Source: Candidatus Parcubacteria bacterium
GTDB lineage: Bacteria; Patescibacteriota; Minisyncoccia; UBA6257; 2-01-FULL-56-20
NCBI GenBank assembly: GCA_027424065.1
Contig: DAIBYH010000017.1
Location: 1-11,475 of the forward strand
DNA length: 11,475 nucleotides
Direction of reading: 5' to 3'
The notes beneath the pieces were generated by a model. It was given only the letters and a program-made list of their open reading frames with translations, was not told where the DNA came from and did no database searches. Numbering within the stretch: position 1 is the stretch's first letter; each line of letters starts with the position of its first letter. The translations under genes and the position numbers were made by a program. This document shows positions 185 through 10,101 of the stretch, one piece after another.

Positions 185-295
185 GGTCAAAAAAAACAGA
201 AAGCGCAAAAATCAAAATTGAAACGCAAAGATCAAAACTTTCGAACTTTCAATTTCAGTTTTGATTTTTGACTTTTGCATTTTACATTTCCCACC
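185..295 (+). repeat. A/T-rich atpH-atpA spacer made of repeated and inverted words
   Basis: This 111-base spacer is nearly all A and T and repeats one word. GCAAAAATCAAAATT (205-219) recurs 20 bases later as GCAAAGATCAAAACT (225-239). Inverted copies follow at 247-278. A 14-bp stem with one G-U pair can form between 226-239 and 257-270 (ATCAAAACT with AGTTTTGAT at its core). A competing pairing is 206-223 with 247-270, with a short bulge. There is no Shine-Dalgarno sequence before atpA. The stem is A/U-rich and not followed by a clean termination tract, so an mRNA structural or spacing element is more likely than a terminator. The role is inference. Confidence 0.6.
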
Positions 296-1822
296 ATGAG
301 CTATGAAATCATAGAAAAACTGAAGCAGGAGATCGCCGGCTACCGGGACAATCCGGAGTGGGCGGAGATCGGGCGGGTCATTGAGGTTGGCGACGGCATC
401 ATCAAGGTCGTCGGGCTTCGCAATGCGGTGAGCCAGGAGATCCTTACAGTCGTAACGAAGAAAGGGGAGCGCACGGCGCTTGCATTGAGCCTTGAAGAGG
501 GGTCCATCGGCGCGCTTGTCATTGATGACTTTCTTCCGATCGAGGTCGGCGATACCGTCAAACGGACCGGCAACGTGCTTTCCGTCCCGGTCGGCGAAGA
601 GCTTATCGGGCGAGTCATTGATCCGCTCGGCGTTCCGCAGGACGGCCTGGGCGACATTTTCCCGAAGGGTAAAACGCCGCAGCGCAATCCGCTTGAGGCG
701 CCGGCGCCTTCGGTCCTCGAGCGTGAATCCGTGAACACGCCGCTCCATACCGGCATCAAGGCGATCGATGCGATCATCCCGATAGGCCGCGGCCAGCGCG
801 AGCTTATTATCGGCGATCGCCAGACCGGCAAGACGGCCATCGCTCTCGATGCCATCCTGAATCAATTGAATGACAAGGGCCGCCGACGCCCGGTCTGTAT
901 CTATGTCGCGATCGGCCAGAAGGAATCCAAGATCGTGAAGATCGCGGAAACGCTCAAGCAGTACGATGCGCTCCAGTACACGATCATCGTCTCGGCTTCG
1001 GCATCCTCGCCGGCGGCCATGTGGTATCTCGCTCCTTATGTCGGCTGCGCGATCGGGGAATATTTCCGCGATAAAGGAGAGGACGCGCTCATCGTTTATG
1101 ACGATCTCTCAAAGCATGCGTGGGCCTATCGCCAGATCTCGCTTCTTCTGCGCCGCCCGCCGGGACGCGAGGCGTATCCGGGAGATATCTTCTATCTCCA
1201 TTCCCGCCTCTTGGAGCGCGCCGCGAAACTCTCCAAGGAGAAGGGCGGCGGATCGCTTACGGCGCTGCCGATCGTGGAGACGCAGCTCGGTGATGTGACG
1301 GCATATATTCCGACGAATATCATCTCCATCACGGACGGGCAGATCTTCCTGGAGTCCGATCTCTTCAACCAGGGCCAGCGGCCCGCGCTCAATATCGGCA
1401 TCTCCGTTTCCCGCGTCGGTTCTGCGGCCCAGACGAAGGCCATGAAGAAGGTCGCAGGCAAGCTCCGTCTTTCTCTTGCCCAGTTCCGCGAGCTGCAGGC
1501 ATTCGTCCAGTTTGCGACGGATGTCGACGAGGGGACGAAAAAGAAGATCCTCCAGGGCCAGAAGATCAGCGAGGTCATGAAGCAGGACGACCTTTCGCCG
1601 ATGCCGTTTGAGACGCAGGTTTGCGTCTTCTATGCGGTTCTCAATAATTACTTCGAAAAAACGGAGGTCGCAGATATCAAGAAGACGGAAGCGGCGCTTG
1701 TGGAATACCTCGAGAAATTCCACGAAGAGGACATTCTGAAGCCGATCCGCGAAAGCGGCCAGTTTGATGAGGCAATCGAGGGCAAGCTGAAGGAGGCCTT
1801 GGGCAGGTTCCTTGAGAGGTGA
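296..1822 (+). CDS. atpA: F1Fo ATP synthase subunit alpha
   Basis: This 508-residue protein is the alpha subunit of the F1 catalytic head, which binds nucleotide at the non-catalytic sites and forms the alpha3beta3 ring. It has the N-terminal beta-barrel (about 25-95, with [12 protein letters not shown]), the P-loop GDRQTGKT at 173-180, the hydrophobic Walker B segment [13 protein letters not shown], and the [10 protein letters not shown] loop that supplies the arginine finger to the beta site. The C-terminal part is helical. Length is normal for the family. I choose ATG 296 ([10 protein letters not shown]) because it gives the usual short N-terminal helix. An in-frame TTG at 275 would add seven residues. 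Neither start has a Shine-Dalgarno sequence; the upstream bases are T/A/C only. It lies between atpH and atpG. Confidence 0.97.
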
Positions 1823-1883
1823 TGTGCGCAGGACGCGTCATCCTTTCAGATCGCCAGCAACTAATCACTAATCGCCAATCTCC
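1823..1883 (+). repeat. atpA-atpG spacer with three tandem heptamers before the atpG start
   Basis: The 61-base spacer ends in three consecutive 7-base units, CTAATCA (1861-1867), CTAATCG (1868-1874) and CCAATCT (1875-1881), directly abutting the atpG ATG at 1884. The word ATCGCCA also occurs twice (1850-1856 and 1871-1877). No Shine-Dalgarno sequence is present. The tandem period is seen directly; any role in translation start or spacing is inference. Confidence 0.55.
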
Positions 1884-2816
1884 ATGGCATCCATCCAAAA
1901 TCTCAAGCGACGCATCAAAAGCGTCCAAAATATCGGAACCATCACGAAGGCCATGGAGCTGGTGGCGGCAACAAAGATGCGGCGCAGCCAGGAGCTCGCG
2001 CTTTCGTCACGTCCGTATGCCTACACGGCACTCGAGCTTCTCGGGATCCTTTCCGATCTTAAGGATGTTCCACTGCCGGATCTTTTGACCCCCCGCGAGA
2101 TCAAGAGGACGGCTTTCGTCATTGTGACGTCCGACCGCGGACTCGCCGGATCGTTCAACAGTTCGGTCATTAAAAAATTCGAAAATTATGTGAAGGAGCG
2201 GGGGATCGACGTTTCATCTCCCGAGTTCGTTTTTGTTGCGGTCGGCCAAAAAGCGAGGTCCTACCTCGAACGCCGGAAGTTGCCGGTCGCCGCATTCTTC
2301 ACCCATGTCAGCGACTTTACGAAACTCGAGGAGACCGATCCTATCGCCGAATTTCTTATCGCCGGATACGAGAACCGCGATTTTGATGCCGCCATCATGT
2401 TCTTCAGTGTGTTCGTCACGGCCCTGCGGCAGGATGCCGTTACGCGGGAATTCCTTCCCGTCACCTACGATGCCGTGAAGGCCTCCATTGAGGACACGAT
2501 CCCGCGCGCGGGGAGGTATTCCGATTATGCGGAATCACCTTCGTTCTTCGAAGGAAAGGTGGGGGAGTATCTGATCGAGCCTTCTCCCCGCGAAGTACTC
2601 GCGGAACTTGCACCAAAACTTCTGAAAACGAGGATCTACCATGCGATCCTGGAATCGAATGCTTCGGAATATTCCGCCCGGCGCATGGCAATGAAGAACG
2701 CCTCCGACAATGCGGGCGAGCTTTCAAAAAATCTGAATCTTGAGTATAATAAGTCGCGTCAAGCAGCGGTGACGAACGAGATCATCGAGGTCACGTCGGG
2801 GTCCGCAGCGGAATGA
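1884..2816 (+). CDS. atpG: F1Fo ATP synthase subunit gamma
   Basis: This 310-residue protein is the central rotor shaft of F1, coupling c-ring rotation to the alpha3beta3 head. The N-terminal helix signature is clear (IKSVQNIGTITKAMELVAATKM, residues about 11-32), as is the C-terminal coiled-coil partner near 265-300 (RRMAMKNASDNAGEL, then NLEYNKSRQAAVTNEI), the region that packs inside the head. The central Rossmann-like domain contains the TSDRGLAGSFN segment typical of gamma. It is slightly longer than the usual 285-295 residues. Start ATG 1884 begins with the classical MASIQNLKRRI; no Shine-Dalgarno sequence precedes it. It sits 61 bases after atpA and 24 bases before atpD. Confidence 0.96.
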   Translation: MASIQNLKRRIKSVQNIGTITKAMELVAATKMRRSQELALSSRPYAYTALELLGILSDLKDVPLPDLLTPREIKRTAFVIVTSDRGLAGSFNSSVIKKFENYVKERGIDVSSPEFVFVAVGQKARSYLERRKLPVAAFFTHVSDFTKLEETDPIAEFLIAGYENRDFDAAIMFFSVFVTALRQDAVTREFLPVTYDAVKASIEDTIPRAGRYSDYAESPSFFEGKVGEYLIEPSPREVLAELAPKLLKTRIYHAILESNASEYSARRMAMKNASDNAGELSKNLNLEYNKSRQAAVTNEIIEVTSGSAAE

Positions 2817-2831
2817 TCGGTAAACGTTTAA

Positions 2832-4225
<1,394 letters not shown>

Positions 4226-4226
<1 letters not shown>

Positions 4227-4249
4227 CGCGGGATCATTTGATGCCGCGC
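4226..4249 (+). other. Small hairpin at the atpD stop, before atpC
   Basis: GCGCGG (4226-4231) pairs perfectly with CCGCGC (4244-4249); after one mismatch ATC/GAT adds three inner pairs around an ATTT loop. No T run follows, so it is not a standard terminator. It could slow 3' decay of the atpD message or lower epsilon output, but this is inference. Confidence 0.35.
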
Positions 4250-4295
4250 CCGCGGAAGCAAGAACCCTGCTTTTAAAAATCGAAAATAATCCTTC

Positions 4296-4547
4296 ATGAA
4301 AGTCGGAGTTTATTCCATGCAGAAGGTGCTCTATCAGGGCGATGCCGAGTCGGTGACCTGCGTTACCGCCGTCGGCGAGATCACGATCCTTGATCACCAC
4401 GAACCGATGATCTCCCTTATCCGCAAGGGCCTCATGAAGATCGTGGATCGCGAAGGCCAAGAGCACTACATTCGGGCGGAGTCCGGATTTCTCGAGGTCA
4501 GGTCCGGCAACGAAGCGAGATTTCTCGTAGAGGAAGAAAAAGCATAA
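4296..4547 (+). CDS. atpC: F1Fo ATP synthase subunit epsilon, short form
   Basis: This 83-residue protein matches only the N-terminal beta-sandwich of epsilon, which binds gamma and the c-ring. The GEITILDHHEPMIS segment corresponds to the family's 'G..G.L..H.P..' pattern, and SGFLEVRSGNEARFLVE corresponds to the final strands. Typical epsilon subunits are about 130-140 residues, with a C-terminal two-helix domain that can inhibit ATP hydrolysis; that domain is absent here. The stop at 4545-4547 is followed 18 bases later by the next gene, with no trace of a broken helical domain, so the short form appears native. Start ATG 4296 lacks a Shine-Dalgarno sequence. Confidence 0.9.
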   Translation: MKVGVYSMQKVLYQGDAESVTCVTAVGEITILDHHEPMISLIRKGLMKIVDREGQEHYIRAESGFLEVRSGNEARFLVEEEKA

Positions 4548-6626: not shown

Positions 6627-6655
6627 TTTTAGCATATTTTAAATAATTTTGTCAA
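6627..6655 (-). promoter_or_regulatory. Promoter and strong RBS region of the 6592-6269 gene
   Basis: On the - strand TTGACA (6650-6655) is followed, with an 18-base spacer, by TAAAAA near 6627-6632. Further down AGGAGGT (6598-6604) lies 5 bases before the GTG start. The -35 is perfect; the -10 is weaker. Confidence 0.55.
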
Positions 6656-6672
6656 ATTCACCGCACAACAAC

Positions 6673-6716
6673 TTGACACAAAAAATATCAATATATAACC
6701 TATGAACAGAAAGGAG
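6673..6716 (+). promoter_or_regulatory. Promoter and RBS of the candidate RiPP precursor
   Basis: TTGACA (6673-6678) is followed after 15 bases by TATAAC (6694-6699); with 17 bases the hexamer would be TAACCT. The 10-mer CAATATATAA (6689-6698) covers the -10 and occurs in the same orientation upstream of the YcaO fusion gene (10002-10011, - strand). AAGGAG (6711-6716) lies 7 bases before the ATG at 6724, the same motif and spacing as for the fusion gene. Confidence 0.6.
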
Positions 6717-6723
6717 AAATGCC

Positions 6724-6846
6724 ATGAACCATAAAAAGTTCAATTGGAAAATTTCTTCCAGAGACCGATGCCCTTCTGGTACGGCAAGACGCCAGGAACA
6801 GTGCAGCTCTGGAGGGGGCGGCAACGGCAAGTGTGGCGGCAAGTAG
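6724..6846 (+). CDS. Candidate RiPP (TOMM) precursor peptide, 40 residues
   Basis: A short frame from ATG 6724 to TAG 6844-6846 encodes 40 residues. The N-terminal part (MNHKKFNWKISSRDR) is polar and basic and could be a leader. The rest holds Cys16, Cys27 and Cys37, almost evenly spaced, with Ser18, Ser28, Ser29 and Thr20 nearby, and ends in CSSGGGGNGKCGGK. A Gly-rich tail with Cys and Ser next to Gly is the kind of core that YcaO cyclodehydratases turn into thiazoles and oxazoles (microcin B17 is the classical example). A strong promoter, AAGGAG seven bases upstream and a strong terminator 22 bases after the stop make it a transcribed mini-gene. It lies beside a peptidase and a YcaO-dehydrogenase fusion. 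There is no double-Gly cleavage motif; the leader/core boundary is unknown. I recognise no known precursor family. Confidence 0.65.
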   Translation: MNHKKFNWKISSRDRCPSGTARRQEQCSSGGGGNGKCGGK

Positions 6847-6868
6847 CGCTACCCTCCGCCTTATCACC

Positions 6869-6915
6869 GAGGGGAACACGATGATCCTACTTCATCATTT
6901 CCCCTCTTTTCGTTT
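6869..6915 (+). terminator. Strong terminator of the precursor transcript
   Basis: GAGGGGAA (6869-6876) pairs perfectly with TTCCCCTC (6899-6906); inside, ATGAT (6881-6885) pairs with ATCAT (6894-6898). TTTTCGTTTTT follows on the + strand. The right arm overlaps the last codons and stop of the converging peptidase gene. No T tract follows on the - strand, so it works for + transcripts. Confidence 0.88.
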
Positions 6916-7719
6916 TTGACGGAAAAACTCCAAAAAAATTTCTGGAGGAATTTTCATTATTTTATTCCATGACAAACGGCTGTCCTCGATGAAGGTTTTG
7001 GTTATCCAGTATCCTATTGAATAGCCCGTCCATTTCTTATATTTTTTTCCGCCCAAAAGGAAATTTTTAATCGTTGCTGGATCATGTGAATCCAAAATAT
7101 CCTCCGAGTTCGCAAGAATATCAATCGCTTTTTGGCGGGAAAGTGCGACCGCCCATGGCGTTGGCCGATGATCGAAGAGCTGTTCTCTAAAATTTTCCGC
7201 CAGCCCCTCTATAATGATCTCTTCCAAGAGAGCGTAGTTATTAAAATTATCGTAATGATGATAATAATAGATCGTATGATTTAACTCATGGGCGATGGTA
7301 TTTTCTAAGGATCGGAGGGTATAGCTGTGAAAATCTATAAAAACATGGAATACGCAACTATATGCTGCCACCGCCATCACCCCCTCAAAAATATTGTCTT
7401 CCCGGCTGGGAAAATAGGGATATACAAAAATAAAATTTTTGACAGGAATTTTTAGGGTCTTGTTGCATTTTTCTATCGTTCTCAAGATTATCTTTCCGAT
7501 GTTTTTTTTCTCTGTGTCGGAGATGGTCCGATAACCGTGGGTCGATCCGGATCCGATGTATCGAAGCAGGCCGTTTCGTAATGATTTTTCATCAGCATAG
7601 CCTGCACGGGAAATGCTCCCGCGCTCTCGCATATCACGAAGGATGTTATTGACAAAGCCCACGCTGCTTTTGCGGTGAATATTGGGAAAATAAAATTCTA
7701 TCTGCGCCAATGAATTCAT
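6895..7719 (-). CDS. HExxH zinc metallopeptidase, DUF2268-like; candidate leader peptidase
   Basis: This 274-residue protein carries AHELNH (His144, Glu145, His148), the HExxH zinc-binding and catalytic motif. It is followed 23 residues later by EGLAENF with Glu171 as the probable third ligand. The HE..H plus EG(L/F)AE arrangement and overall size match the predicted Zn-dependent proteases of the DUF2268 type. No signal peptide or membrane helix is seen, so it should be cytoplasmic. Position 66 bases after the YcaO fusion on the same strand suggests it processes the modified peptide, for example by removing the leader; this is inference. Its DNA is A/T-rich (near 40% GC in the lines I counted) against near 58% in the ATP operon, a sign of transfer. 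Start ATG 7719 has only a weak GAAG before it. Confidence 0.75.
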   Translation of the reverse strand: MNSLAQIEFYFPNIHRKSSVGFVNNILRDMRERGSISRAGYADEKSLRNGLLRYIGSGSTHGYRTISDTEKKNIGKIILRTIEKCNKTLKIPVKNFIFVYPYFPSREDNIFEGVMAVAAYSCVFHVFIDFHSYTLRSLENTIAHELNHTIYYYHHYDNFNNYALLEEIIIEGLAENFREQLFDHRPTPWAVALSRQKAIDILANSEDILDSHDPATIKNFLLGGKKYKKWTGYSIGYWITKTFIEDSRLSWNKIMKIPPEIFLEFFRQKRKEGK

Positions 7720-7742
7720 TCTTCAATCATAACAAATGAAAT

Positions 7743-7770
7743 CGGGGGCAGAAAGTTGATTCTGCCCCCG
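7743..7770 (-). other. Perfect 11-bp hairpin between YcaO fusion and peptidase genes
   Basis: CGGGGGCAGAA (7743-7753) pairs perfectly with TTCTGCCCCCG (7760-7770) around a 6-base loop. Read on the - strand it follows the fusion gene stop (7786) and precedes ATTTCATTTGTT, only moderately T-rich. It may be a leaky terminator or an mRNA stabiliser that sets fusion and peptidase levels apart. Confidence 0.7.
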
Positions 7771-7785
7771 GATCCTTCGGATTGG

Positions 7786-9966
7786 CTACTCGAAGGGGTG
7801 AGGGAATTTCGTAAGTTGGTGATGGGTTATACCGCGTCCGAACCGTGCTGCAATTTGGTAGATTCGCGGCATGCCTGTCGGTTCTTGCCGATAGCCAAAC
7901 GTCATCTGCGTCATTCCGGGGACAATAGTCCTGACGATGTGCAATCCGTCGTTGCCTCCGTATTTGGCAGATACGGCGAGAGGTACCACAAGTTGCTTCC
8001 ATCCTTTCTGATTAAAGCGCTTCATCAGAGATGCTCGCGACATCGCTGCGCCATGCGCCGCATCTTTGAAAGATATCATTCTATTGTCGCTAACCAGAAA
8101 ATCGGATTGGCGAAAGTAGCGTCGCTGAGCATAGAGTCGTCCGTGATCGTTCGGCCAGACAACCTCATTTGGTAGAAGCGATGCTAAAGGGCCGTGCTGT
8201 AGGCGATACAGTATTGAGGATTCCACTTCCGTTAGGGCATGTTCGGTGGCATATGCAATATCGAAGCTGGAGCATGATGCACACGCCGTGAAAGAGATGT
8301 TCGTGTTCTGGGCAAAGACAAAAATCACCGGAGCGAGATCGAGTGTGTGATCCAAGAACCACACATTAAATCCGATACGCCGAAGATTCTGCAGGCGCTT
8401 CTGAATTTCATCCGGAAGCGTTTTGGGGGAAATGATAGGCGCGCTGATCCTACAGAGATATCTGTTCATAAACGCATCGCGCTCGACCAGTTCGAGGGTG
8501 CCCGTCTCGATTGCGGTTTGTTCATTTGGATGCGCAGCGCAACCCGATGAATTTGCGTAGCAATAATAGGGCGTTTCGGGAAAGTACGGGAAGTAGACGT
8601 GATCAGCGAGGACAAAAAACTCTTTCCCTTCCGCGTCATATGCCTTCGTCCATGCGTATTGTGCTGATTCGTCAAATGGCACAAACGGAAAACCGGGCAG
8701 GTTATATTGGCGCGAATGAAATCGGATAATTTGCCTCGGATCGACGACGCAATCCAATTCTTTGTAGCGAGCGCGAATTAAATCAGGAATACATCCACAC
8801 GCTGTCCACTCCCGCGCTTCAGACGTTGCCTTCATGACAGCCATCTTTGGCGAGGGATCTCTCCCGTGGGCCCAATTACGCCCAGGAGATAAGCGCGCAG
8901 ATGCAAGAGCGAAGCTCGGTTTGTAGTTCCTTGCGAGAGGAATCATCCAATCCACTTCAGGTTTGGGAGAGCTGTTTTCGGAATCCGATTGGAACCCTTC
9001 TTTTCCAAACGCGATTACGGTAAGGGGGTGATATTTCCCGTTGAGATTTACTGCGTCAGCAACCAAATCGTCGGCAAAGCCGCCGATCTCGAGGGTTGCT
9101 ACGCCTCGTTGAGTCGCTTCGAGAAGGATGTTCTGTGCAACGTGTCCGGCTTCGAGCGTCGTGTAGAGCATTGCCCGGTTGCCGTATTTCGCGTTCGATA
9201 CGGAGAACGAACCACTTATGACAATTGCTCCATGAACGCCATTCTGAATTCCGGCAGGGCTAAGGAAGGCCCTGGCGAATTTTAGCGTGTCTTCGGTGAT
9301 CAACTTGAATCCAACCGATCCATTTTGGTCATAGCAGGCTTTATAGATGCCAGCTGCGAGATCTCCGCTTTTTTGGAATAATCCCACGCGAATATCAAGC
9401 GGATACAAAGCTCCGGCAGAAGGGACGGTTCTATGCGAGCGCTCATCAGCAGCAAAACATTCTCCGTAAGCGCTCCATAGCATATTGACGATGGTTTGGA
9501 TCGGAACCTCCTCTCCGGAAAAGATTCTGGTTGATTTGCGAGATGCGATAAGCACCTCAAGATTTCCAAGATTCGGTTCATAGGTTTTATCGCAGATGTC
9601 CAAACGGTGCCTATCAACAGCATCATTGACAAGCGACGCAACCTTTTTGTTGCTGACGATTACAGGAAACAGCATGGGATTGGTAACCACTTGCCAAAAT
9701 TCTTCTATAAGATTTCTTCCGTCAACAACAATTCTTTTACGGAAAAGATCACCAAGAAGACCAGAGACAGATTTCCTCTCCCATGAACTCGACATTTCAT
9801 TGAGGACGCTTGCGACGGTCGTGCGACCATCGCAAAGATCGAGCATCTGCCGAATTACCACATTCGGCACCTCTACCGTAATTTCTTCAGTCAGCGTCTT
9901 AAAGGCTGTTTTGTTGCGGAAGACGACGGATGATGCACGCAGAACGGGAACGTCATCGAATTTCAT
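7786..9966 (-). CDS. RRE-like / SagB-type dehydrogenase / YcaO cyclodehydratase fusion
   Basis: This 726-residue protein appears to join three TOMM-pathway modules. Residues 1-90 resemble the PqqD-like winged-helix recognition element that binds RiPP leaders (VVIRQMLDLCDGRTTVASVL, then a helix and KRIVVDG). Residues 130-325 are a SagB/McbC-type FMN nitroreductase-fold dehydrogenase: SRKSTRIFSGEEVP, RTVPSAGALYPLDIRV (179-193) and AGHVAQNILLEATQRG (273-288); it would oxidise azolines to azoles. Residues 350-726 are YcaO: SEAREW (382-387), NSSGCAAHPNEQ then LELVERDAF (491-499), HALTEVESS, and a C-terminal PHPFE like the Pro-rich ends of azoline-forming YcaOs. YcaO uses ATP to cyclise Cys, Ser or Thr. 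The usual Arg of the first 'EA.ER' motif is Trp387. No separate E1-like partner is present. Start ATG 9966 has AAGGAG seven bases upstream. Confidence 0.88.
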   Translation of the reverse strand: MKFDDVPVLRASSVVFRNKTAFKTLTEEITVEVPNVVIRQMLDLCDGRTTVASVLNEMSSSWERKSVSGLLGDLFRKRIVVDGRNLIEEFWQVVTNPMLFPVIVSNKKVASLVNDAVDRHRLDICDKTYEPNLGNLEVLIASRKSTRIFSGEEVPIQTIVNMLWSAYGECFAADERSHRTVPSAGALYPLDIRVGLFQKSGDLAAGIYKACYDQNGSVGFKLITEDTLKFARAFLSPAGIQNGVHGAIVISGSFSVSNAKYGNRAMLYTTLEAGHVAQNILLEATQRGVATLEIGGFADDLVADAVNLNGKYHPLTVIAFGKEGFQSDSENSSPKPEVDWMIPLARNYKPSFALASARLSPGRNWAHGRDPSPKMAVMKATSEAREWTACGCIPDLIRARYKELDCVVDPRQIIRFHSRQYNLPGFPFVPFDESAQYAWTKAYDAEGKEFFVLADHVYFPYFPETPYYCYANSSGCAAHPNEQTAIETGTLELVERDAFMNRYLCRISAPIISPKTLPDEIQKRLQNLRRIGFNVWFLDHTLDLAPVIFVFAQNTNISFTACASCSSFDIAYATEHALTEVESSILYRLQHGPLASLLPNEVVWPNDHGRLYAQRRYFRQSDFLVSDNRMISFKDAAHGAAMSRASLMKRFNQKGWKQLVVPLAVSAKYGGNDGLHIVRTIVPGMTQMTFGYRQEPTGMPRIYQIAARFGRGITHHQLTKFPHPFE

Positions 9967-9991
9967 TTCAAATCTCCTTTCCAGTTGTCAA

Positions 9992-10034
9992 TTTATACCA
10001 TTTATATATTGCGTAATATATAAATTTAAGTCAA
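9992..10034 (-). promoter_or_regulatory. Promoter and 26-bp palindromic operator candidate of the YcaO fusion gene
   Basis: On the - strand an extended -10, TGGTATAAA, occupies 9992-10000. Just upstream lies an inverted repeat with perfect 11-bp arms, ATTTATATATT (10000-10010) and AATATATAAAT (10015-10025), around GCGT. TTGACT occurs at 10029-10034. The palindrome sits where a repressor or activator would touch RNA polymerase. Half of it contains the CAATATATAA word of the precursor promoter. Confidence 0.6.
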
Positions 10035-10051
10035 ATTTAGCAGAAATATCA

Positions 10052-10069
10052 GAATTCGGTACCGGATCC
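10052..10069. other. Three abutting 6-bp palindromes
   Basis: GAATTC (10052-10057), GGTACC (10058-10063) and GGATCC (10064-10069) follow without gaps, looking like a cloning polylinker (EcoRI, KpnI, BamHI sites). The site also marks the change from A/T-rich to G/C-rich sequence. It may be chance, an assembly or library artefact, or a natural junction. Confidence 0.5.
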
Positions 10070-10101
10070 CTGCCGCCCTGGACTTCCTGTGGATATCTCA
10101 G

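Follow-up and report, generated by a model that had tools for sequence, protein, structure and literature searches.

A probable minimal azole-forming peptide locus with a one-chain synthase in a Parcubacteria genome

The synthetase of microcin B17, McbBCD, consists of three separate proteins, one of which is E1-like. The cyanobactin heterocyclases LynD, TruD, and MusD possess an E1-like domain and are not known to have a dehydrogenase in between, and the azoline oxidases ThcOx and BmdC are not known to carry a fused YcaO. A different arrangement is encountered in the window analysed here, that is, the whole stretch of 11,475 nucleotides of contig DAIBYH010000017.1 (assembly GCA_027424065.1) from the genome of a Candidatus Parcubacteria bacterium, hereafter G000. 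In contrast with McbBCD, its putative synthase is one chain in which no E1-like domain was recognised, and unlike the cyanobactin enzymes it has a dehydrogenase in its middle. Together with the genes of a 40-residue peptide and of a DUF2268 peptidase, this fusion very probably represents a real locus for a ribosomally synthesized and post-translationally modified peptide (RiPP), akin to the linear azol(in)e-containing peptides (LAPs) or thiazole/oxazole-modified microcins (TOMMs), in a one-chain form and with a newly delimited precursor family. Patescibacteria are mostly uncultured and have small genomes, and many are thought to live on other cells; to our knowledge, few weapons or signals are known from them.

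LAP clusters have been reported from genomes of the candidate phyla radiation (CPR). The accessible part of PMC7298704 (mBio 2020) describes a cluster with a YcaO, a nitroreductase, a peptidase, and an 84-residue precursor in a Microgenomates genome, as well as 110 LAP clusters from another 93 genomes of the CPR. Compared by that description, the present locus is alike in bringing together a YcaO, a nitroreductase-family dehydrogenase, a peptidase, and a precursor gene, whereas YcaO and nitroreductase are neighbouring genes there, with the precursor gene adjoining that of the YcaO, and a fused chain here. An earlier note on this DNA had called the locus apparently undescribed, which goes too far for the type of cluster; for the fused chain and this precursor family it stands insofar as the accessible part of the paper mentions neither, nor the peptidase family. 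A literature search, with most subscription journals outside its coverage, found no paper on the fused CPR enzyme. According to the accessible parts of other papers, RiPP recognition elements (RREs) fused to dehydrogenases are perhaps vestigial (PMC7470986), and the usual cyclodehydratase is made up of a C plus a D protein, with exceptions lacking C, bottromycin and trifolitoxin being believed to do without the E1-like or ocin-ThiF partner (PMC4603692). The leader of microcin B17 is removed by TldD/E, going by the accessible part of PMC10885120, in contrast to the gluzincin proposed for this task at the present locus.

The precursor gene is located at 6724-6846 on the plus strand. Its 40-residue product, MNHKKFNWKISSRDRCPSGTARRQEQCSSGGGGNGKCGGK, has cysteines at positions 16, 27, and 37 and can be divided into a leader with the sequence KKFNWK, a conserved QEQC, and the core CSSGGGGNGKCGGK. 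The gene is convergent with those of the peptidase (6895-7719) and the fusion enzyme (7786-9966), both on the minus strand, and the arrangement given in the earlier note, a three-cysteine peptide facing a peptidase and a YcaO-dehydrogenase fusion, was borne out in its coordinates and domains. The expression signals listed there held up unevenly. An AAGGAG ribosome-binding site can be read directly at 6711-6716 (+), separated from the ATG by 7 nt, and a strong terminator, a hairpin followed by a U-tract, is present at 6869-6906 (+; -19.4 kcal/mol, z -4.28), with none of 200 shuffles giving an equally good stem. A simple terminator scan omitted this hairpin because it admits loops of 3-8 nt only. 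The TTGACA promoter is weaker than claimed: upon direct reading, TTGACA (6673-6678, +) is followed after 15 nt by TATAAC (6694-6699), and a promoter scan called nothing on the plus strand, as this best -10 sequence is only 15 nt from TTGACA and the scan requires a spacer of 16-18 nt. The promoter is only fair and is left as plausible.

The first relatives with the same layout came from G012, with an intact fusion of 55 % identity, and G013, with a fusion remnant; in each, a similar peptide gene and a DUF2268 gene run towards one another. A profile built from these two peptides and that of the window was used to search 244 whole genomes of the order irrespective of gene neighbourhood. It found the family in eight genomes, the three seeds and five new ones (G217, G243, G103, G188, and G190), with E values of 1.1e-22 to 4.2e-9. 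At E<=0.01, the count is 11 of the 244, of which G015, G033, and G214 (0.0015-0.008) were set aside as chance, as were second weak matches in G012 and G190. Seven of the eight peptide genes directly adjoin a gene of one DUF2268 subfamily and the eighth is in the same cluster: the two genes are convergent and less than 80 bases apart in G217, G243, G188, and G190, and the G103 peptide gene is found upstream of the fusion gene at a distance of about 130 bases, the DUF2268 gene following after the fusion. Residues F6, Q24, Q26, C27, G35, and C37 (window numbering) are invariant in the eight sequences, Cys16 being peculiar to the peptide of the window. A codon comparison of 10 pairs among five precursors gave 17-25 differences at the third position, 6-16 at the first, and 6-12 at the second. 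The peptide genes of the relatives have purine-rich ribosome sites in front of them, and behind most of the genes there is a hairpin with a T-run (judged by eye for all but the window). Because the 40-residue frame is conserved across genomes, keeps its gene association, and shows an excess of third-position change, it is on this comparative evidence a real gene, which agrees with the earlier note that the peptide is not random.

A second peptide, MEKDILGEGMELTKVTLESSSESNCIPQCGPDCGPACIPA, is encoded in G012 (L020, about 6755-6877, +), convergent with the gene of another HExxH-like protein (6929-7738, -) for which Pfam gave nothing at E<=0.01. A relative of this protein, 36 % identical, adjoins the precursor in G188 (L024 9788-10558).

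The fusion gene, with an AAGGAG ribosome-binding site read directly at 9974-9979 on the same strand, encodes 726 residues. An RRE-like domain, identified from the predicted model and structural comparison, occupies residues of about 6-85 (9712-9951), followed by a SagB-type flavin mononucleotide (FMN) dehydrogenase domain (about 130-325; 8992-9579) and a YcaO domain (about 331-726; 7789-8976) with the C-terminus KFPHPFE. PF00881 matched at residues 140-322 (5.8e-16) and PF02624 at 368-685 (1.7e-37); the best NCBIfam match was the SagD azole model (1e-42), and all 19 aligned fusions, that of the window included, matched TIGR03604 and TIGR03605 at E<=0.01. The predicted structure can be fitted onto LynD, TruD, MusD, and McbD, onto McbC, and onto ThcOx and BmdC (VIA-align). 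The YcaO and SagB-type identities proposed in the earlier note are thus confirmed by family matches and predicted fold; the RRE-like domain is an addition to it. In the model, strands and then three helices follow one another in the order of the RRE fold, and the structural alignments with LynD, ThcOx, and BmdC extend to the N-terminus of the fusion. Profile comparisons of the N-termini, made with 16 of the 19 fusions (L056, L061, and L063 left out), gave weak PqqD matches for 8 of the 16 and weak matches to LynD, MusD, and TruD that ranked below unrelated ones. The N-terminus is here termed RRE-like, and leader binding is predicted for it; in comparison with ThcOx and BmdC, it is the only such domain seen at its locus. 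Sequence and predicted fold together indicate that one chain combines an RRE-like domain, an FMN dehydrogenase, and a YcaO cyclodehydratase.

The peptidase of 274 residues belongs to the DUF2268 zinc metallopeptidases, with HELNH at residues 144-148 and Glu171 (PF10026, 96.5 bits against a cut-off of 23.6). His144, Glu145, His148, and Glu171 are invariant across 18 aligned rows, and the predicted model (pLDDT 94.5) has a gluzincin fold. Foldseek alone, used with this model, returned nothing at E<=0.001, and a peptidase profile found no useful relative among PDB sequences. The subfamily profile, built from seven of these loci and hence dependent on them, matched in nine of the 244 genomes of the order, eight of which are the peptide genomes; the ninth, G162, has a divergent member (5.2e-25) and no peptide match. 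Second DUF2268 copies exist in G103 (C105) and G243 (C10); inspection of C10 established no peptide there.

A terminator-like hairpin (7743-7770, -; z -5.47) separates the fusion gene from that of the peptidase. A hairpin rich in GC, in most cases with a T-run after it, was present between the stop of the fusion (or its remnant) and the start of the peptidase at all ten loci compared (window, L020, L021, L023, L024, L025, L046, L047, L049, and L051; L050, with its peptidase gene on the other strand, was omitted), with z values of -2.4 to -7.5, nine of them at -4 or lower. Its conservation suggests that the two genes perhaps do not form a simple operon, and the peptidase gene may have a short or leaderless transcript of its own. 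In the window, the promoter scan called nothing between the two genes. By eye, a TATAAT-like sequence and the peptidase ATG come soon after the hairpin in several loci.

The recurrence of a Cys/Gly-rich peptide near homologous fusions, which the earlier note had set as the test of its proposal, was examined in wider taxa. A search of genome contigs with the single fusion protein gave no match; an alignment-based search gave at least 537 relatives, of which 80 were kept. Three profiles were run on all 80, and neighbourhoods were inspected for 21 (L045-L065, L045 being the G012 contig and L048 the G188 contig). The precursor profile matched at six of the 80, every one beside a fusion. Fused chains among the matches listed are from several Patescibacteria, Achromobacter, a Rhodocyclales draft, Argonema, and a Propionibacterium draft. 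In a tree of 19 fusions, that of the window falls in a nine-row clade (window, G012, G103, G188, L046, L047, L049, L050, and L051) with support of 99/99, and all nine of these intact fusions have a related Cys/Gly peptide nearby, as the test demanded; the L049 peptide was found by eye and had been missed by the profile. Seven of the nine leaders contain F[NST]W, with FSF in L050 and FSP in G188. Among the 21 inspected loci, a recognisable precursor was present in 14 and the peptidase, by profile, in 14, not the same ones. Outside the clade, at fused or split loci, the leaders are different and Cys/Gly/Ser-rich tails are retained, mostly just behind the YcaO gene: candidate precursors, seen by eye, start about 10-100 bases after it in L057 (the first of two copies), L058, L060, L062, L063, L064, and L065. 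YcaO and dehydrogenase are separate genes in L062, L064, and L065.

A fusion profile matched 12 of the 244 genomes of the order at E<=1e-5, the matches in G042, G044, G158, G159, G176, and G191 being partial only (separate SagB- or YcaO-like proteins). Four of 383 genomes drawn evenly from the class matched at E<=0.001, G312 (2.2e-4) and G445 (7.6e-4) among them, and 21 of 379 spread across the phylum did so at E<=1e-20, mostly with one part only. Besides that of the window, long fused chains were seen phylum-wide in G880 (two overlapping frames), G842, and G686; in G660, dehydrogenase and YcaO are fused and the N-terminal part is in an adjoining frame. Precursor candidates were found in G842 and G686 and none was seen in G660, where the contig ends soon past the gene. 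Comparison of the fusion with plasmids gave 47 records, all below 60 % identity and two covering at least 80 % of the query. One of these records, from a Rothia nasimurium plasmid (L174), is a long chain that is also alike at the N-terminus, with no clear precursor beside it. The peptidase had no match in a phage collection.

Similar long fused chains for which no precursor was recognised occur outside Patescibacteria in L056 (Achromobacter sp. UMC71), L054 (the Rhodocyclales draft), L059, L061, and L174. Upstream in L054, a gene noticed by eye encodes a transporter-like protein whose N-terminus is peptidase-like.

The reading that we prefer, with a probability of roughly 0.8, is that fused enzyme, peptide, and peptidase form a minimal LAP/TOMM-type RiPP locus. 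A YcaO cyclodehydratase, a precursor with a leader and a Cys/Ser/Thr core near the enzyme, and an FMN dehydrogenase, which only some members of the class have, are all present, as are the PF10026 match, HExxH, and downstream Glu of a DUF2268 gluzincin. The 40-residue peptide would be made from its own short transcript, and its leader, through the KKFNWK strand, would be read by the RRE-like domain. The YcaO domain would then use ATP to cyclise Cys27 and Cys37, possibly also Ser28 or Ser29, to azolines, which the dehydrogenase domain of the same chain would oxidise to azoles before the peptidase removes the leader. Leader binding, ring formation, oxidation, and cleavage, like export and a biological role, are steps that we infer.

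Several observations weigh against this reading. An intact fusion accompanies the peptide in four of its eight genomes in the order (G000, G012, G103, and G188). G013 and G190, from two families of the order, keep only about the last 88 residues of the fusion (the G013 remnant, L003/L021, contains stops; that of G190 is located at L025 10030-10296), and no fusion was detected in G217, where 27 kb around the peptide gene were read, or in G243. Peptide and peptidase genes are retained in all four, their frames being still open in G013 and G190. As G190 is a single contig, the loss there is not just a matter of missing contigs; either the decay of the enzyme is recent or the peptide-peptidase pair has a use of its own. 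The fusion of the window is under the NCBIfam curated cut-offs for both SagD (TIGR03604, 146.4 of 219.25 bits) and SagB (TIGR03605, 71.7 of 78.4 bits) and is, judged by these scores, a relative and not a typical member of these families. No precursor was recognised at seven of the 21 inspected loci (L052-L056, L059, and L061), of which L053 ends within the fusion and L052 starts 133 bases before it. The G880 precursor (L166 1404-1535, -), with a KRFIW leader, has a core with Ser and without Cys (SSDSSGKSSNSKD), which makes it a natural test of oxazole formation. The E1-like or ocin-ThiF partner, typical of LAP/TOMM systems without defining them, is missing from the set: no ThiF/E1-like protein (PF00899) was found in G000, a draft of 0.53 Mb that is 85 % complete, with 12 of 14 control genomes matched. 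No exporter was recognised among the nine window proteins scanned, and no C39 peptidase was found in G000; other exporters were not sought.

The retention of peptide and full-length DUF2268 genes in the four genomes with a remnant or undetected fusion could mean that these two are the working pair and the fusion is optional or a passenger. The peptide would then act in bare form or after modification by a different enzyme, with the peptidase processing it or protecting the producer. The comparison of G013 with G217, which still has its third-position excess (9, 6, 19), agrees with this, and at about 1.9 kb from its peptide gene G190 encodes a radical SAM-SPASM protein (L025 5888-6997, +) that could be an alternative modifier. 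We nevertheless consider this explanation improbable, since the peptide-peptidase pair is found with each of the four intact fusions in the order and with the five others in the clade, and the Cys/Ser/Gly make-up of the core fits azole formation; moreover, G013, G217, and G243 are multi-contig drafts, and in G243 the contig that bears the peptide is short, with the adjoining DUF2268 gene cut.

Some YcaO proteins form thioamides or amidines, and the fusion gives a weak match, 39 of 365 bits, to the McrA thioamidation model. Such a modification of the peptide instead of azoles is nonetheless very unlikely in view of the SagD azole model as best match and the SagB-type oxidase in the same chain, and no TfuA was found among the nine window proteins scanned. 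A lone 40-residue frame with a composition bias and no called promoter would have been weak evidence for a gene, and a chance frame, with the substrate of the enzyme elsewhere, was considered too; it was rejected, and is for practical purposes refuted, by the relatives found in the genome-wide profile search, the gene association, and the codon pattern.

If the LAP/TOMM reading is right, the E1-like partner that is usually needed would be dispensable for an azole synthase, and the RRE-like domain of an oxidase part would be a leader reader and not a vestige. The delimited precursor family, together with its one-chain synthase and its dedicated peptidase, makes peptide chemistry of Patescibacteria testable with two or three genes in a laboratory host. 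A wider scenario, tentative and on balance doubtful, is that a one-chain, E1-independent azole synthase serves peptide-peptidase pairs spread horizontally among Patescibacteria. The pair would then be a stable unit that outlives the enzyme and is kept under selection, with a peptide whose role is not strictly ring-dependent or that uses another modifier.

Near the locus, G190 (L025 5184-5498 and 8377-8736) and G188 (L024 2274-2606) encode small proteins of some 100 residues that end in a WWxxYFE-like sequence and resemble one another by eye; the G188 protein had no Pfam match.

In its left part, the window has genes for ATP synthase (about 275-4547, assigned by sequence reading with no family scan), followed by small genes up to 6592. 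Peptide, peptidase, and fusion genes are all inside an AT-richer island at 6640-10080, with a GC content of 0.39-0.52 against 0.53-0.62 in the flanks (600-base windows), which was probably acquired. In the same-genus genome G001, the right flank of the window has no counterpart in the stretch compared, and the left flank is kept as far as a relative of the 6269-6592 gene, beyond which other genes follow. This change of genes behind a shared left flank, together with the absence of any fusion match in G001, suggests that the island was acquired by the genome of the window.

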